Part shown: positions 12,875-57,307 of the stretch, one piece after another | How positions within the stretch are numbered: position 1 is the first letter of the stretch | Layout: every line of letters starts with the position of its first letter | DNA from: a virus | DNA: 64,000 nt | Direction: 5' to 3' (one strand) | IMG/VR virus record: IMGVR_UViG_3300032235_000637 | Coordinates: 1-64,000 of that record | Position numbers and translations under genes: made by a program | The notes under the pieces: generated by a model | What the model saw: the letters and a program-made list of their open reading frames with translations, nothing else | Told to the model about the DNA's origin: nothing | Database searches by the model: none

Positions 12875-13375
12875 TTATTTCTTTTCTTTTAAGTGTTCAA
12901 TAAACGAAAACCAAACCTCATTCCAAAACCACGCCACACACCATTTGTCTTTGTGTCGAATGAATTCATATGGACATTCAATCCCTTCCAATCTAGCAAT
13001 ATCATCCATTGTTTCTGCATACTCAACCTCTGTCCAAATATCTCTAGCTTTAATTTTGGAAATCCGATTATTCACTCTCAAATTGATCACATAGTCACGA
13101 ATGTCTTTTTTGGTTTGATCTTCATCATATTCTTCCAATTTGCGCGAATCGAATAATTTATTCATAGTGTAATCGGCATGTAAATCGATTAAAAATTCGT
13201 GTAGAGTATAGTTACCTCGATGTGTCCACCAATGACACCCATTCAACTCCTGATAATGAGGGCATGATACCGACACATAACCAGTAGATGGTTGTAGTGT
13301 AATGATAGCTTCACTACCGATGCGATAGGTTTCCAAACCATCCATCATGGTAACTGCATGTTTTTTATATTTCAT
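12875..13375 (-). CDS. Hypothetical protein, 166 aa
   Basis: Begins MKYKKHAVTMMDGLETYRIG; contains VSVSCPHYQELNGCHWWTHR and a helical region DYVINLRVNNRISKIKARDI. It overlaps the 2H phosphoesterase gene by 4 nt and is therefore probably co-expressed with it. Not recognised. Confidence 0.6.
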   Translation of the reverse strand: MKYKKHAVTMMDGLETYRIGSEAIITLQPSTGYVSVSCPHYQELNGCHWWTHRGNYTLHEFLIDLHADYTMNKLFDSRKLEEYDEDQTKKDIRDYVINLRVNNRISKIKARDIWTEVEYAETMDDIARLEGIECPYEFIRHKDKWCVAWFWNEVWFSFIEHLKEKK

Positions 13376-13806
13376 TTGATTGTAATCATTTTAGGCCACC
13401 ACGGATGAACATTACCGTGTTTTCCGTTCGCAAGTGTAATATGAAGTCCACGGTAGCCATTGTTCTCCACGATATTAAGGTCTTTTTTCATATTGTCAAG
13501 CACTTCCGAATAAACTTTCAGATAAAACATGATGAATCCTTTGGTCTGACCACCTTGTATTACACATGGATCATACTGAAAATTCACACGTTCTCCATCA
13601 TAATACACAGCACGTTGCCAATTGACATCTTTGTGAAATTTGGGATTCGTAATAGTGATGTGAGCTTTATGTAAAGGACGTTGTAAGAGAATCCAATATT
13701 TTTTTGACAGATGCCAGTGGTAATAATCAATAATATCAGGAGAAGTCTCAACGACGATGCGTTGTCTATCTCTTTCTACTTTAATTACCCCACTGGCATT
13801 GATCAT
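13372..13806 (-). CDS. 2H phosphoesterase, candidate Acb1-like anti-CBASS nuclease
   Basis: 144 aa from the ATG at 13806, 6 nt after the -10 box; the longer open frame only translates the promoter. Two HxT motifs are present, H49-I-T51 (HITITN) and H122-I-T124 (HITLAN), the catalytic pairs of 2H phosphoesterases. Single-domain size, the 73-residue spacing of the motifs, the upstream DYYHWHLSKK segment and VNFQYDP resemble the T4 gp57B/Acb1 family, which degrades cyclic nucleotides that activate CBASS. The 2H fold is well supported; the Acb1 role is inferred, and other 2H roles (RNA 2',3'-cyclic phosphodiesterase) remain possible. Confidence 0.65.
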   Translation of the reverse strand: MINASGVIKVERDRQRIVVETSPDIIDYYHWHLSKKYWILLQRPLHKAHITITNPKFHKDVNWQRAVYYDGERVNFQYDPCVIQGGQTKGFIMFYLKVYSEVLDNMKKDLNIVENNGYRGLHITLANGKHGNVHPWWPKMITIK

Positions 13807-13814
13807 ACACCGAT

Positions 13815-13831
13815 TGTATTCTAGTTTTTTA
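13815..13831 (-). promoter_or_regulatory. Accessory-type promoter for 2H phosphoesterase
   Basis: The reverse strand reads TAAAAAACTAGAATACA then AT; ATG exactly 6 nt after TACAAT. Confidence 0.72.
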
Positions 13832-14326
13832 TTTTTTAACTCTCCAATCCACCACGACCTTATCAAAAGGTTCTACCTCATGAATACCATCCCATTCGAC
13901 TTCTGTTCCATTGTAGGACTGGTAATATCCTGGAATGTAATAATAACCATGGAGAACACCCTCTCTTTCGACTTTAAAGACACAATGCCAGTGTTCACCT
14001 TCTCCTTCTCCACCACCCTCTTGATCAACCACTTCAATAACCCAGTCAAAGAATTCCAATTTATTCTTTCGATATGGGAAATCATAAGGTTCCACACCAT
14101 ATTTCAATTCACCATTTGTTGGATTTTTGAGGAATTTCTCACATTTTTCTTCATCTGTGAAGAAATCAAGAACTTTCTTAATATTCTTCGGATTAAAATT
14201 CACCAAAAAATCTGCTTCCGCTTTCTCAGCTTCCGCTTTTTTCAGAGCTTCCGCTTCTTTCTTAACTGCTTCTAATTCTGTGTTCAATTTCTTGATCTCT
14301 GCTTCAATTTGTTCTTTCGTTTTCAT
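13829..14326 (-). CDS. Hypothetical protein with N-terminal coiled coil, 165 aa
   Basis: Residues 1-40 are a Lys/Glu/Ala coiled coil (IEAEIKKLNTELEAVKKEAE). The remainder is beta-rich with a glycine loop (DQEGGGEGEGEHWHCVFKV). It overlaps the upstream NTase-fold gene by 4 nt. Function unknown. Confidence 0.6.
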   Translation of the reverse strand: MKTKEQIEAEIKKLNTELEAVKKEAEALKKAEAEKAEADFLVNFNPKNIKKVLDFFTDEEKCEKFLKNPTNGELKYGVEPYDFPYRKNKLEFFDWVIEVVDQEGGGEGEGEHWHCVFKVEREGVLHGYYYIPGYYQSYNGTEVEWDGIHEVEPFDKVVVDWRVKK

Positions 14327-15099
14327 GTTGTTCTTAATTTATTTTCTGTTTCTGCTTGTTTAAATTTATCAATATATGAGAAATCTCTATCGCTTCTCAG
14401 GACATCAATGTTTGTTAGGATGAAGAATTTGAACCAGCCACTACTCATGGTTGTAGCCAATTTCTTCAAAGCTTTCTGATACGCTTCAATTTTTGAGAAT
14501 TTGAAGTCACGGGGGATCAACCATCTTTCCAATGCAGTCACCCATACTTCCTCTTTCACAAGATTTAATTTATCATCATAGGATAATTTGTCAAATCCTT
14601 TTTTAGAGCATGACACACCTTCATACACCAAAGATTCGTATAATGGTTTATCGTAGATAGCCACAGCTTCATGGATGTCATCGTGAACATACTTACGTTT
14701 CACTGCATCCTCAAAAAATGTTTCCGAATCCTTTCCTTTCAGAGATGCCCACTTAACTCCATGGAGATTGGTAAAGCCTTTGACCAATTTTTTATATAAT
14801 TTTTCATCGACAACACATCCTTTGGATTTCAAAAAACAAACATCTGATACATGTTTTTCCCAAAAGATGTTCCATCCCAAATGAGCCAATTTTAAAGTAT
14901 AAATGAAATTTAAATCGAGATATACAGCATCTTCATTATTGTCTAAAAAATACTGAAATTCGGGAATCCAATGGTATTCCACTTCTTTAGAAGAAACACC
15001 ATCTTTGGAGATATAATCAACATCCTTTGGTGTTCGAGGAAAATCAGGACACCAATGTTTGATCGCTGTCGATCCGTATACCAAAAGTTCTTTACTCAT
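14323..15099 (-). CDS. Nucleotidyltransferase-fold protein, 258 aa
   Basis: The N-terminus LLVYGSTAIKHW followed by PKDVDYI gives the GS...DxD pattern (G9-S10, D26, D28) of the minimal nucleotidyltransferase fold, seen in a common phage family. The rest is helical. Substrate unknown. First gene of its transcript, ATG 6 nt after TACAAT. Confidence 0.68.
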   Translation of the reverse strand: MSKELLVYGSTAIKHWCPDFPRTPKDVDYISKDGVSSKEVEYHWIPEFQYFLDNNEDAVYLDLNFIYTLKLAHLGWNIFWEKHVSDVCFLKSKGCVVDEKLYKKLVKGFTNLHGVKWASLKGKDSETFFEDAVKRKYVHDDIHEAVAIYDKPLYESLVYEGVSCSKKGFDKLSYDDKLNLVKEEVWVTALERWLIPRDFKFSKIEAYQKALKKLATTMSSGWFKFFILTNIDVLRSDRDFSYIDKFKQAETENKLRTT

Positions 15100-15107
15100 G
15101 CACCGAT

Positions 15108-15125
15108 TGTATTCTAGTTTTTTAA
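15108..15125 (-). promoter_or_regulatory. Accessory-type promoter for NTase-fold gene
   Basis: The reverse strand reads TTAAAAAACTAGAATACA then AT; start codon 6 nt downstream of TACAAT. Confidence 0.72.
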
Positions 15126-15326
15126 TTCTTTCCAGCGTTTTTTAGCTTTTTTCAAACACTTAATAATTCTCTTCAATGTCTCAATATCTTTAATTTCGCC
15201 ATTGTTTGGTAATCCAGAGATGAGTGCAAACCACTTATCTTCTTTGGCAAGTGTTACCTCAAAATGAATGAGATTGTTATCATTATATGTTTTAAACACA
15301 ATTTCTTCGCTAATTTCTTCTTCCAT
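15114..15326 (-). CDS. Hypothetical acidic protein, 70 aa
   Basis: The start at 15326 (MEEEISEEIVFKTYNDNN) follows the upstream stop as TAATAATTATG; the longer frame overlaps the neighbour. Ends KKAKKRWKELKN. Not recognised. Confidence 0.6.
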   Translation of the reverse strand: MEEEISEEIVFKTYNDNNLIHFEVTLAKEDKWFALISGLPNNGEIKDIETLKRIIKCLKKAKKRWKELKN

Positions 15327-15331
15327 AATTA

Positions 15332-15804
15332 TTAAATCCAATCGGGTTTGTTTCTTTTCCAAGCATGGATATGCTTCTTGTCCAAGATAATATATTGTCG
15401 GTATTTGTCAATTGCTGACAAAGATTCAAAATTTGATAGCTTACGACACTCGCAGTCATCAGCAATAGCGATAGCGAATGGTGTCAAATCCCAAGAGTCA
15501 AACCCCAATAGATGAGCATGGTCTTCACACCATTCCAATACTGCTTGAGACTTGTGTATCTTTTCATAACGTGCTGTATATTCATCGAAGATGGCATGAC
15601 CATGAGCAATAGCCCATTGGAAATTATCATAGCTTGCGCGAACCCAAAGGCTACTTGGATGATTACGATGCGAGGGGCGATATGGAGCGTCCACGTTTTG
15701 TTCGTGATATGCAGTACATAAGAGTTGTACAAGCTCCAGACCCATCTTAATACAATGGGCATTAACCAGCCACCTAGCGGACTGGTCGGGACAGGGTGAT
15801 GTAG
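15332..15804 (-). pseudogene. Conserved phage protein split by LAGLIDADG element (body)
   Basis: This is the body of a common uncharacterised phage family that normally starts MNIF... and carries an HC..KM..E..QLLCTA block. Here the body reads TTSPCPDQSARWLVNAHC, then IKMGLELVQLLCTAYH, YRPSHRNHP and a Trp-rich end HAWKRNKPDWI. The first four codons (ATG AAT ATC TTC) and the promoter lie 850 nt away at 16649-16687. The motif AATATCTTCA occurs at both ends of the intervening element; deleting one copy restores a 161-aa frame exactly. In the present state only an internal ATG at 15745 (MGLELVQLL) could be used, without the promoter, so it is probably inactive unless the RNA is joined. Confidence 0.72.
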
Positions 15805-15844
15805 TGAAGATATTGATAATTTAAAAAAGTTGAGGTTAAATGAA

Positions 15845-15850
15845 TAAATA
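15845..15850 (+). promoter_or_regulatory. Late-type TAAATA for the LAGLIDADG gene
   Basis: TAAATA lies 6 nt before the ATG at 15857, close to the 5-nt rule of the late genes. Confidence 0.45.
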
Positions 15851-15856
15851 ATGTAT

Positions 15857-16651
15857 ATGACAATGACCGATAAAATTTGTAGTAAATGTAAAATCAATAA
15901 AAGCGTTTTGGAATTTTATAAAAGAAACGATACTAAGTGTGGATTTAGATCACATTGTAAATCATGTGTAAGTACCCGCGAAACAGAAAAAAGAGATAGA
16001 CAACGAGGTAGTAAAAGAAAGAATTGTAAATATTCTTTTAACGAAGATAGATTATTACAAGATGATTTATTAACTTGGTATATTGCTGGATTATTAGCTG
16101 CCGATGGACATATTCATGAAAAAAAACAGAGTGTTTCTTTGACTTTAAAAATGGAAGACATTGAAACTATTAAAATTTTTAAAGAATATTTTGAATATGA
16201 TGGTGTTGTGTCAATGTATCAAAACAAATATCCATATGTTCGTATTAATGGCTCCAAAAAAACTGTCAGCATATTAAATGATAAATTTAACATCACCCCG
16301 AAAAAATCTTTAACATTACTTCCACCGTGCAATATACCATCGTCAGAACATGCTCTAGCATATATAATTGGATATATAGATGGCGATGGTTGTATTTATA
16401 CAACACCAAAAATAACGCAATTACAAATTTTAGGAACTGAAGATTTGTTAAATTTCATATTAGGGGTTTTTTCAGAGTATTGCAATGTTAGTAATTTAAG
16501 ACCTAGAAAATCTTCAAGTGAAAACGTATTACAAATTTGTTTTTCAGGTAATCTCACAAACAATAAATGTAAATATTACAATATCTTGAAAAAAATGAAA
16601 GAATTGCCTGTTCCGAAAATGGAAAGAAAATGGTCAAAGTTGGTATTTTGA
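15857..16651 (+). CDS. LAGLIDADG homing endonuclease with N-terminal Cys cluster
   Basis: Two LAGLIDADG helices are visible: WYIAGLLAADGHI and YIIGYIDGDGCI, each ending in the acidic catalytic residue, so it is a two-domain monomeric enzyme. The N-terminus has CSKC and CKSC pairs, a zinc-finger-like module. About 264 aa. An ATG at 15851 is also in frame, but 15857 fits the TAAATA spacing. Only this gene and 34001-35338 break the minus-strand run before 35 kb. Its TGA lies inside the right 10-bp repeat. Confidence 0.88.
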   Translation: MTMTDKICSKCKINKSVLEFYKRNDTKCGFRSHCKSCVSTRETEKRDRQRGSKRKNCKYSFNEDRLLQDDLLTWYIAGLLAADGHIHEKKQSVSLTLKMEDIETIKIFKEYFEYDGVVSMYQNKYPYVRINGSKKTVSILNDKFNITPKKSLTLLPPCNIPSSEHALAYIIGYIDGDGCIYTTPKITQLQILGTEDLLNFILGVFSEYCNVSNLRPRKSSSENVLQICFSGNLTNNKCKYYNILKKMKELPVPKMERKWSKLVF

Positions 16652-16669
16652 AGATATTCATGAGCAGAG

Positions 16670-16687
16670 TGTATTCTAGTTTTTTAA
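16670..16687 (-). promoter_or_regulatory. Accessory-type promoter with detached start codon of the split gene
   Basis: The reverse strand reads TTAAAAAACTAGAATACA then CT, and 6 nt later ATG AAT ATC TTC at 16650-16661, the original first codons of the gene now at 15332-15804. Confidence 0.72.
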
Positions 16688-16740
16688 TGTGTGGTATATC
16701 ACTCATAAATCGAGTTAATGTTGTATATACCACACATTAA
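16684..16740. repeat. 16-bp perfect inverted repeat
   Basis: TTAATGTGTGGTATAT at 16684-16699 and its exact complement at 16725-16740. It overlaps the stop of 16737-17165 and ends at the promoter. There is no U-tract in the minus direction, so an operator or processed hairpin is as likely as a terminator. Confidence 0.65.
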
Positions 16741-17165
16741 CCATCATATGCACCCAATTGTCTCCAGCCTCTTCTACCATATACATAACCACAACCATCG
16801 GCGTGTCCAGTGTTCTTATCAACATTAACCAATTGCCCACAATTTTCACATCTCATGTATCGGTCTGTTGATGTTGCCATGGAAATAACTTTAAGACATT
16901 CTCCTCCAGCACCTACTTCCGAATTGCCTTCGATTTCCGCCGATTTCTTAAACCATTCTTTCGATACACCAGCTAGTAACGGTGGTTTATTTGTGGCACT
17001 GATTGAGATATGGTTAGTTGCGAGTGTAACAAGAAAATCTTCAACCTCGTCCAATACTCTTTCAGGTACTCCACCAGCTTGATCTATCGCTTTCCAGAAT
17101 GACTTCCAATTTTGGAAATAGATTTCGTATGCTTCGGTTGTTAATGTTTTTCTAGTCGGTCCCAT
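16737..17165 (-). CDS. Hypothetical protein, 142 aa, C-terminal zinc-finger-like
   Basis: Ends with MRCENCGQLV and NTGHADGCGYVYGRRG, a CxxC...H...C zinc-binding pattern. The N-terminal part is helical (YFQNWKSFWKAIDQAGG). ATG 7 nt after TATAAT. Function unknown. Confidence 0.65.
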   Translation of the reverse strand: MGPTRKTLTTEAYEIYFQNWKSFWKAIDQAGGVPERVLDEVEDFLVTLATNHISISATNKPPLLAGVSKEWFKKSAEIEGNSEVGAGGECLKVISMATSTDRYMRCENCGQLVNVDKNTGHADGCGYVYGRRGWRQLGAYDG

Positions 17166-17173
17166 GTTTGTAA

Positions 17174-17191
17174 TTATATTTTAGTTTTTAA
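17174..17191 (-). promoter_or_regulatory. Accessory-type promoter for 16737-17165
   Basis: The reverse strand reads TTAAAAACTAAAATATAA then T; -10 TATAAT, start codon after 7 nt. Confidence 0.68.
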
Positions 17192-17193
17192 AT

Positions 17194-17225
17194 GAAAAAT
17201 GCCCCATATTTCAGGGGCATTTTTC
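17194..17225 (-). terminator. Rho-independent terminator after 17233-17487
   Basis: Stem GAAAAATGCCCC / GGGGCATTTTTC with an 8-nt loop and A/T flanks. It separates the upstream operon from the next promoter and could work both ways. Confidence 0.78.
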
Positions 17226-17232
17226 GGTGGGA

Positions 17233-17487
17233 TTAGAACGAGCGGATACCGTTCAGCCTAATCTCAGTTGCTAAGTCTCGAACATCTACACTCGCCCATT
17301 GTGTGGAGTGTTGATTCTTAGAAATGGCAACATTAGCACCTCCTCCAAGGATATGGAACGATCCATCTTTAAGTTGAATCATCTGAACTGAAAAAAGCTT
17401 CGGATGTTTGCGTTGATCACGGCTACGTAGCCACTGTTTGTTTTTTCGGTTGTTTTTTACTGTTTTTGTTGTTTTGTTGTTTTCCAT
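17233..17487 (-). CDS. Hypothetical basic protein, 84 aa
   Basis: N-terminus extremely basic (KTVKNNRKNKQWLRSRDQRK), C-terminus with LKDGSFHILGGGANVAIS. Possibly nucleic-acid binding from composition. Not recognised. Confidence 0.55.
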   Translation of the reverse strand: MENNKTTKTVKNNRKNKQWLRSRDQRKHPKLFSVQMIQLKDGSFHILGGGANVAISKNQHSTQWASVDVRDLATEIRLNGIRSF

Positions 17488-17526
17488 ATTTTTTTATATT
17501 ACTATTGTTTTCTTATTTGTCAACTG

Positions 17527-18177
17527 TTAATGGTGATCAACAGTTAAAATATCTTTGGTAGACATCACATCTTCCACTTCTTCAAATGACCAAATATCTC
17601 TCTTGTAATCCCACGACACATCCAACATCTTACCAAGATGGTATTCTGGATTTCTAGTCTTGTCGGTATTGTGTTGGTGTCCACTGATCATCCACGCTGA
17701 GTGGCGCATGTGATTCCAAGAGTGGATTGGAAAATGTTGTAGGATAACACTTTTCTTACCAACTTGGAGTTCTTGGTAATTACCCAAGAACACTACATTG
17801 TTAAATCGCATGGGATACACTTCGATATCAGGATCACCGTATATTTCCAATACTGTTCGCCGATAGATACGGAAAATGTTTGATTCATGATTCCCATAGA
17901 TGTAATTAATATTCTTACAATTGATTCGTGAGAACCATTCCAGAACTTGTTCATCTGTAGCATTCAAAAATCCATCTCCAAGAAAATATAAAAAATCATC
18001 TTCTTTAACTCTCGCATTGATTTTGTTCACCACATCATCCAAAGATTCTTGAGGTGACGAATAACCACGCATCTGCCAAATAGGAACATCCCACTTCGGA
18101 TCATGGTAATTATGCCAATCACTTGAGAAAAAGATTTTGTTTCTATCTTCCCATTTATGTTTAATAATTTTATTCAC
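17527..18177 (-). CDS. Calcineurin-like metallophosphoesterase, 216 aa, GTG start
   Basis: Metal-binding motifs appear in order: SSDWHN (D20, H22), FLGDG (D68), YGNHES (95-100), ILQHFPIHSW and SGHQHNT. This is the classical binuclear phosphoesterase fold. Substrate unknown. The GTG start overlaps the upstream stop (GTGAATAA). Confidence 0.85.
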   Translation of the reverse strand: MNKIIKHKWEDRNKIFFSSDWHNYHDPKWDVPIWQMRGYSSPQESLDDVVNKINARVKEDDFLYFLGDGFLNATDEQVLEWFSRINCKNINYIYGNHESNIFRIYRRTVLEIYGDPDIEVYPMRFNNVVFLGNYQELQVGKKSVILQHFPIHSWNHMRHSAWMISGHQHNTDKTRNPEYHLGKMLDVSWDYKRDIWSFEEVEDVMSTKDILTVDHH

Positions 18178-18406
18178 CTTGTTTTATTTTTTCAATAATA
18201 TCATCGATACCTTGAATGATTTCAAAGGTAGTATCATCTTCCACTACCAAACATGGCACATTACGAATACCATGTTTTTTAAACCATTCAATGTTTTGTG
18301 GATCATTATAATTTTTAATCTCCACAGTTAATTCCAATTTCTCCAGTCTTGCTTTAAGCAAGTGACATGGACCGCAAGTTGCACTCGTTGCTAATATTTT
18401 CTTCAT
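18170..18406 (-). CDS. Thioredoxin/glutaredoxin-like protein, 78 aa
   Basis: Redox motif CGPC at residues 11-14 in TSATCGPCHLLKARLEKL and the cis-proline strand NVPCLVV, typical of thioredoxin-fold proteins of phage NrdC size. Likely a reductant for ribonucleotide reductase or general disulphide exchange; no nrd gene is in the window. Confidence 0.82.
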   Translation of the reverse strand: MKKILATSATCGPCHLLKARLEKLELTVEIKNYNDPQNIEWFKKHGIRNVPCLVVEDDTTFEIIQGIDDIIEKIKQGE

Positions 18407-56515: not shown

Positions 56516-57307
56516 TTAAAAGTAATTACCATATATACTCCCATCACTGCCTCCTGTAGATGGTGGGAATATCTCATTTCTCACAATATCATCGGAATTT
56601 TCCGTATAGATCTTATTGGCACTCAAAGCACTGGACAATTCAGGGAACAATACTGAAGATATTTTACCGAAGTAAGAATTATCAGCATTTTGTTGATTGA
56701 ATGCTTCTCTAGGTTCATTGGTAACGAAATTGTGTTCACTACGAACTGCTTTCAGTCTCCATACATAATGACCCATTGCGGGGTTGAGTTCTGATTGGTC
56801 TTCGTCCATCGCCTCTGACACTTCAAATATCTTAGCACTTCTACCATTAGGTCTATCACATCCAAATGGATAAACGATAATCTTGTCCTGTGATTTGGGT
56901 TCTACTGGATGATTTTGGAAATAACTCAAAGAACCGAATTTCGTCTCAAATTCATCGATATGTAAATACAATGTTAAAGTATCAGGGGAGTCCATACCAG
57001 CCAAAGCATAAATTGGAGAACCATTTTCCATTTGGATATATGCTTTGATTTCCATTGCACTCAACCAATACATCGTGGTATGTTCTCCATAAATAGAATT
57101 CATTTGGTCTGGTTCAAAAGTATTGACCATATAACCAATTGTTACACCATAGTTATTGATGAGTTCTCCAAATTGAGAATTAAAAATTGCTCTTTCTGCT
57201 TGGAAATTAGATGGATCAGCGAATCCACCACAATTAGGACGATATACACCAGCGAAAATTTTCTCAGGTGTTAAGCATGATAAAGGTATTGTTGGACATC
57301 CAGCCAT
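56516..57307 (-). CDS. Neck protein, gp14-like, 263 aa
   Basis: INNYGVTIGYMVNTFEPDQM, SIYGEHTTMYWLSAMEIKAY and LTLYLHIDEFETKFG follow the T4 gp14 pattern (YG...Y....D.IYGE...IKAY...). The T4 order of neck then terminase genes is kept. It would close the head-tail connector. Confidence 0.62.
   Translation of the reverse strand: MAGCPTIPLSCLTPEKIFAGVYRPNCGGFADPSNFQAERAIFNSQFGELINNYGVTIGYMVNTFEPDQMNSIYGEHTTMYWLSAMEIKAYIQMENGSPIYALAGMDSPDTLTLYLHIDEFETKFGSLSYFQNHPVEPKSQDKIIVYPFGCDRPNGRSAKIFEVSEAMDEDQSELNPAMGHYVWRLKAVRSEHNFVTNEPREAFNQQNADNSYFGKISSVLFPELSSALSANKIYTENSDDIVRNEIFPPSTGGSDGSIYGNYF

Follow-up and report, generated by a model that had tools for sequence, protein, structure and literature searches.

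In the genome of an IMG/VR virus we identified a LAGLIDADG homing endonuclease gene that interrupts a conserved phage gene (hereafter the host gene) between codon 4 and the remainder of the gene. Together with a late-type promoter and a substitute 5′ end for the host gene, this nuclease gene probably constitutes a mobile cassette that spreads by homing. The stretch of DNA analysed, hereafter the window, covers bases 1 to 64,000 of a record of 88,489 bases, and the T4-type terminase and tail sheath encoded there point to a myovirus. A DNA search with positions 13300-18200 found no match in isolate phages. The features of the locus are collected in Table 1.

Table 1. Features of the interrupted host gene, the inserted cassette and the associated promoter-like motifs, in window coordinates.
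Feature	Position	Strand	Remarks
Host gene body with substitute 5′ end	15332..15817	-	phrog_624; N-I-F-T-T-S-P-C-P...; first codon ATC, not ATG
Foreign (putatively co-converted) host-gene tract	15563..15814	-	Versus L004: 62-70% over the first ~200 nt, then 95-100%
Left copy of TGAAGATATT	15805..15814	.	Codons 2-4 and first base of codon 5, substitute 5′ end
Cassette leader	15815..15842	-	Ends ATT ATC; 23/28 nt in common with the scar-like L013
Predicted N-terminal peptide of substitute-start host protein (or its fMet form)			NIFTTSPCPDQSAR
Late-promoter-like TAAATA	15845..15850	+	Followed by nuclease ATG at 15857
LAGLIDADG homing endonuclease gene	15851..16651	+	266 codons, intact; antisense to host gene
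Right copy of TGAAGATATT	16649..16658	.	Contains the TGA that ends the LAGLIDADG ORF
Stranded host-gene remnant	16650..16661	-	Codons 1-4, ATG AAT ATC TTC
Stranded early-type promoter-like motif TTAAAAAACTAGAATACA of host gene	16668..16687	-	6-8 nt before ATG
TTAAAAAACTAGAATACA sites, examples	24884, 22742, 16684, 15122, 13829, 9502, 9102, 7055, 4921, 3840, 1902	-	
TAAATA-N-ATG sites, from a total of 19	61297-, 59163-, 53379-, 50876-, 42740-, 15845+		

The host gene was assigned to phrog_624 (E 1.3e-45), relatives of which are encoded in 562 of 50,697 isolate phage records. Its product scores 16.1 bits against the pyrimidine dimer glycosylase family PF03013, below the Pfam cut-off of 23, and has no solved structure among its relatives. 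An AlphaFold model (pLDDT 70.7, pTM 0.60, N-terminus below 50) gave 0 Foldseek matches at E <= 0.001. An initial reading of the DNA without database searches (the sequence-only reading) had placed the LAGLIDADG ORF antisense after codon 4, between two copies of a 10-bp repeat, and held that excision of the segment restores the host frame. Both repeat copies lie where it had put them, the strand and coordinates of the ORF agree, and the joined flanks give ATGAATATCTTCACTACATC..., an uninterrupted MNIF protein. A third copy of the repeat, at 56654, is unrelated.

The insert measures 844 bp, of which 801 nt are occupied by the LAGLIDADG ORF, the sole ORF of note, leaving 43 nt outside it. The gene probably starts at the ATG at 15857 rather than at the first codon of the ORF. 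Two motifs, WYIAGLLAADG and YIIGYIDGDG, were recognised by the LAGLIDADG pattern with its acidic residues, and Pfam LAGLIDADG_3 matches over two stretches (34.9 bits; curated cut-off 22.5). With a domain above the cut-off and both motifs, the ORF falls among the LAGLIDADG homing endonucleases (PF14528; PDB 2dch and 3fd2 by sequence), which have the same domain and the two catalytic motifs; unlike the known enzymes compared, it is borne by neither intron nor intein. The protein also has an N-terminal Cys4 zinc-finger-like stretch resembling phage endonuclease VII/HNH families. It had no match among isolate phages; five distant LAGLIDADG loci were found (L024-L028, of which L024 is a kinase-like fusion), and a scan of genome contigs gave 6 loci at 36-40%.

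Could the insert be a self-splicing intron whose ORF runs antisense, with MNIF-TTSPCP restored when the RNA is joined? The frame restored on joining the flanks would fit, but this appears extremely improbable: Rfam gave no group I/II match in 15300-17000 at E up to 10 and no intron family at gathering score across the window, the ORF fills almost the entire insert, and two relatives considered below (L006 and L053) hold a complete ATG-started copy, which makes splicing unnecessary. The sequence-only reading was thus right that this is not a normal intron-encoded ORF, given the lack of an Rfam intron match and the 43 nt outside the ORF, and the RNA joining that it had envisaged is not needed, since the relatives show a stranded old start beside a substitute start. 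An intein was ruled out, as the ORF is antisense to the host gene and has its own stop codon. A transposon with a target-site duplication also fails to describe the element, there being no transposase-type ORF of note and the site in the empty allele L004 being unlike the repeat. Nor is this a free-standing gene of the seg/mob type, as the nuclease gene lies between remnant codon 4 and substitute codon 2 and not beside its target.

Scans of viral contigs returned 19 and then 25 loci, and the scans and the window together provided 26 host-gene copies without double counting. The site is empty and the gene ATG-started in 21 of the 26, several of these being near-duplicates. An ATG start is found in 23, namely the 21 empty copies, L006 and L053, and is missing at the start position of three: the window and L020 have ATC and the LAGLIDADG ORF, and L013 has ATT and no nuclease. 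In the empty allele L004 the upstream flank is identical to that of the window over 84 nt, up to ATGAATAT. Relatives with an empty site and a contiguous MNIF sequence, anticipated by the sequence-only reading, are thus plentiful; TTSPCP, which it had taken for the continuation, is not the local empty-site sequence, as L004 reads MNIFATSKCP. TTSPCP belongs instead to the incoming cassette, which runs on into the host gene. Codon and block comparisons omitted the near-duplicates L008, L009, L012, L014, L015, L019, L049 and L051 as well as L016, L017 and L055, and the nearest-relative ranking omitted L022 (one-codon shift). Separately, the pattern AAATTATYAATATCTTC occurs in at least 119 stretches in viral contigs; among the 80 loci listed, tblastn found host-gene relatives in three, including the L011 and L012 contigs, where a different nuclease gene contains the match.

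The window and L020 carry the same cassette, with 0/844 mismatches across the insert and a further 41 identical nt at the beginning of the downstream gene, and the insertion looks recent on this count. Relative to L004, with identities computed in 40-nt blocks, the last clustered mismatch of the window tract lies at offset +251. In L020 the foreign tract extends to about +32, beyond which there are scattered differences only. Judged by this comparison, the inserted unit reaches past the left repeat copy into the host gene, for about 250 nt in the window and about 32 nt in L020. One cassette is therefore present in two phages but ends at a different right-hand boundary in each. Such boundaries are what double-strand-break repair from a donor would predict, and later recombination could mimic them.

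The same design recurs in L006 and L053 with another nuclease family. Here an antisense endonuclease VII/HNH-like gene (phrog_3322; 77% identical between the two loci) is inserted after about codon 24, leaving a 24-codon remnant of the old start behind the old promoter, and on the other side stands a complete ATG-started gene. Remnant and substitute start agree at 61/66 nt in L006, and at 39/72 nt and 11/24 amino acids in L053, where the substitute start differs strongly from that of all other copies compared. At the junctions (codons 24-25) Lys-Met stands in the remnants and Lys-Gln in the substitutes; this change may have abolished the cut site, but several empty copies also have Lys-Gln. 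In a tblastn control over 26 loci an upstream remnant was detectable only in L006 and L053, the four-codon remnants of the window and L020 being too short for this test. BLASTP found no significant similarity between the window LAGLIDADG protein and the L006-type nuclease (E 0.057). A CxxC...FYxR...CxxC stretch that fits the phage endonuclease VII/HNH families is present in both nucleases (window 15857-16000; L006:1404-2105), and is perhaps a DNA-binding module common to LAGLIDADG and HNH-like nucleases. Downstream of the host gene in L053 (3504-4132) there are three successive short ORFs of VRDSVWDSVEDSV-type repeats.

These relatives bear on the 10-bp repeat, which the sequence-only reading had rightly singled out as needing an explanation. 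By analogy with them, the favoured reading is that codons 2-4 occur in two places, the stranded remnant and the substitute 5′ end; L006 and L053 hold a 72-nt version of the same arrangement. A target-site duplication is disfavoured and probably does not apply, because codons 3 and 4 of the remnant agree with the cassette and disagree with L004, the closest empty allele, and because the relatives have the 72-nt version; at offsets 5, 8 and 9 the empty L004 site and the repeat have different bases. The remnant frame runs on into a 35-codon antisense ORF, and in 4/4 cases (window, L020, L006 and L053) the nuclease ORF ends at the remnant or within about seven bases of it. Taken alone, the four-codon remnant of the window is indistinguishable from a join by microhomology, and our reading of it leans on L006 and L053, whose nucleases are of a different kind. 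A possible, if unlikely, alternative is that a free-standing divergent nuclease upstream of an ATG-less L013-type gene was copied one-sidedly into an L004-type phage, one end joining by gene homology and the other by the 10-bp microhomology, from a donor that had no remnant. The repeat is indeed only 10 bp long and takes in the stop codon of the nuclease gene, the leader occurs in L013 without a nuclease, and the 5′ end of the same gene adjoins a free-standing sense HNH gene in Synechococcus phage DSL-LC02. However, remnant codons 3-4 fit the cassette and not L004, and the full remnants, single site and homologous nucleases of L006 and L053 favour two-sided homing there.

We then consider the substitute start itself. 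In the window and L020, ATT ATC are the only codons between an in-frame stop and codon 2, and in L013 the corresponding codons are CTT TTT AAA ATT ATT. The next in-frame ATG, GTG or TTG comes at codon 25 of the window and L013 copies and at codon 17 (TTG) in L020; the program ORF list places the window start at Met25. The match of the window leader to that of L013 was equalled by 1 in 200,000 random stretches of the fetched loci, which included copies of the L013 contig. Across codons 2-23 the window and L013 differ at 10.5 of 14.2 synonymous sites, near saturation, versus 5.5 of 51.8 non-synonymous sites, and the L013 protein is conserved here also against ATG-started copies. We infer that this region is translated in the ATG-less copies, with ATC/ATT as the start; were initiation to take place at that codon itself, the product would not differ from that of an ATG start. 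In L013 a promoter motif stands directly before the cassette leader, and the locus looks like one that has lost its nuclease and remnant, but it could instead be the ancestral donor locus.

No recognisable promoter or Shine-Dalgarno sequence precedes ATC/ATT in the window; this, and the fact that only 3/26 copies lack ATG, may mean that the window gene is damaged. That the host gene is inactivated in the window and L020, with the downstream ORF decaying or giving a truncated product from Met25, would be in keeping with the absence of a conventional start codon before codon 25 (codon 17 in L020) and with an insertion that appears recent at 0/844 mismatches. We regard it as rather doubtful, as L013 is likewise ATG-less yet conserved in protein over codons 2-23, the window ORF is open across all 160 codons, and there is no second host-gene copy in the 88-kb record, which may be incomplete. 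Translation of the downstream gene from another frame in the leader with a frameshift, or by some route other than ATC/ATT, is improbable. T-rich and A-rich runs do stand right before the gene (TTTTTTAAA / TTTTTAAAA), but the upstream frames differ between the window and L013, no common start codon or shift site was seen by eye, and the two share ATT one codon ahead of the old ATG position. For L013, a +1 shift of frame at TTT TAA was rejected, the window having no such site.

The promoter-like motifs suggest separate expression of the two genes. The stranded motif TTAAAAAACTAGAATACA is now directed into the antisense strand of the nuclease gene; on the window minus strand it recurs before many genes, often 6-8 nt from ATG, a spacing that implies near-leaderless mRNAs. 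Shine-Dalgarno-like motifs were found at 7/84 starts called with a crude ORF picker (up to 91 nt of candidate starts). TAAATA closely precedes the ATG of 19 window ORFs of at least 60 codons, including the sheath gene, and TAA[AG]TA-N5..6-ATG precedes 5/5 nuclease genes examined. This TAAATA-ATG class resembles the T4 late promoter. It precedes structural genes with leaderless geometry, and includes a divergent pair at 42740-/42751+. With its own late-like promoter, the nuclease appears to be expressed late and independently of the host gene.

Cleavage, homing and non-AUG initiation are the steps that we infer for the cassette. The nuclease would cut nuclease-free phrog_624 copies near codons 1-5, and repair from a cassette-bearing phage would paste in the nuclease gene and the donor 5′ end, the gene-conversion tract continuing some way along the host gene. 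Beyond the nuclease gene, the recipient's promoter and its codons 1-4 would be left stranded. The resulting allele would be immune to cutting, because each junction retains only half of the putative site, and the host gene would be usable only if started from the substitute end, at ATC or the preceding ATT. A more elaborate and quite speculative version of this scheme is a natural home-and-rescue drive aimed at the start codon. The nuclease site would then span the initiation region, and AUG recoded to AUC/AUU would make the allele uncuttable and still be translated, in a phage that is near-leaderless and poor in Shine-Dalgarno sequences; once the nuclease had gone, as in L013, the phage would retain the scar and the non-AUG start, and antisense RNA from the stranded early promoter would delay the nuclease until late infection. 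Engineered home-and-rescue gene drives reportedly insert a nuclease cassette into a gene and supply with it a recoded rescue portion of that gene. They are Cas9-based, and their likeness to the phage cassette is one of design only.

The closest known systems are fungal. The account of mobile ORF (mORF) gene hybrids in PMC3630166 describes a foreign C-terminus together with an endonuclease ORF (LAGLIDADG or GIY-YIG) in mitochondrial genes, the hosts being atp6 of Allomyces macrogynus and atp6, atp9, cox2 and nad3 of Glomus sp. (PMC3630166). On that account these hybrids and the phage cassette share a homing ORF, a foreign terminal replacement and a stranded native terminal part, and in both the replacement segments are diverged in DNA and conserved in protein (PMC3630166). 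This combination is clear in L006 and L053 and is present in the window and L020 with a four-codon remnant. In the fungal hybrids it is the 3′ end, and so the C-terminus, that is replaced, with the ORF downstream and in some cases in phase with the gene (PMC3630166), whereas the 5′ end is replaced in 4/4 phage cases. The phage cassette further differs in that start codon and promoter are replaced, the nuclease is antisense and two nuclease families use one gene. By analogy, we view it as a 5′, antisense, phage counterpart of the fungal mitochondrial 3′-end elements. Partial duplications near homing genes are also reported for two other fungal mitogenomes (PMC6279837, PMC7902536).

T4-like phages carry both free-standing and gene-splitting endonucleases (PMC2988022, PMC10448857). 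The portions of PMC2988022 at hand describe free-standing seg/mob endonucleases, intronless homing, promoters of their own or borrowed, and some insertions that displaced transcription starts or split genes (mobA, mobE); they do not describe, for the T4-like set, a duplicated or substitute 5′ end with a stranded remnant. Nor did we find such an arrangement for any phage in the open-access PMC literature, outside which most subscription papers fall, and this absence is weak evidence of novelty. In DSL-LC02 (L184, OR032571.1 39172-39768) the HNH-type gene lies in sense orientation, without a remnant, and shares 35 bp with the 5′ end of the phrog_624 homologue. With an endonuclease gene here as well, the gene start is a repeated target of nucleases. 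At the 3′ end of a neighbouring phosphatase-like gene (window 17527-18177), L005:1820-3473 and L011:1864-3507 contain two different LAGLIDADG-type genes in convergent orientation. The last ~200 nt of the phosphatase-like gene are foreign in L005 (38-72% versus the window, after 94-100% upstream), a pattern like that of ordinary intronless homing accompanied by gene conversion. Lying beside their target gene, the L005 and L011 nucleases fit the free-standing seg/mob type.

In summary, these loci suggest that a selfish nuclease needs neither intron nor intein to occupy a protein gene if it brings a replacement for the part that it breaks. That two nuclease families have entered one gene with the same design suggests a general route. 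The ATG-less alleles are natural material for testing AUC/AUU translation of a conserved phage gene, and the cassette may be seen as a natural counterpart to recoded rescue drives. Moreover, gene callers will mis-annotate such genes, as with the window gene called from Met25.
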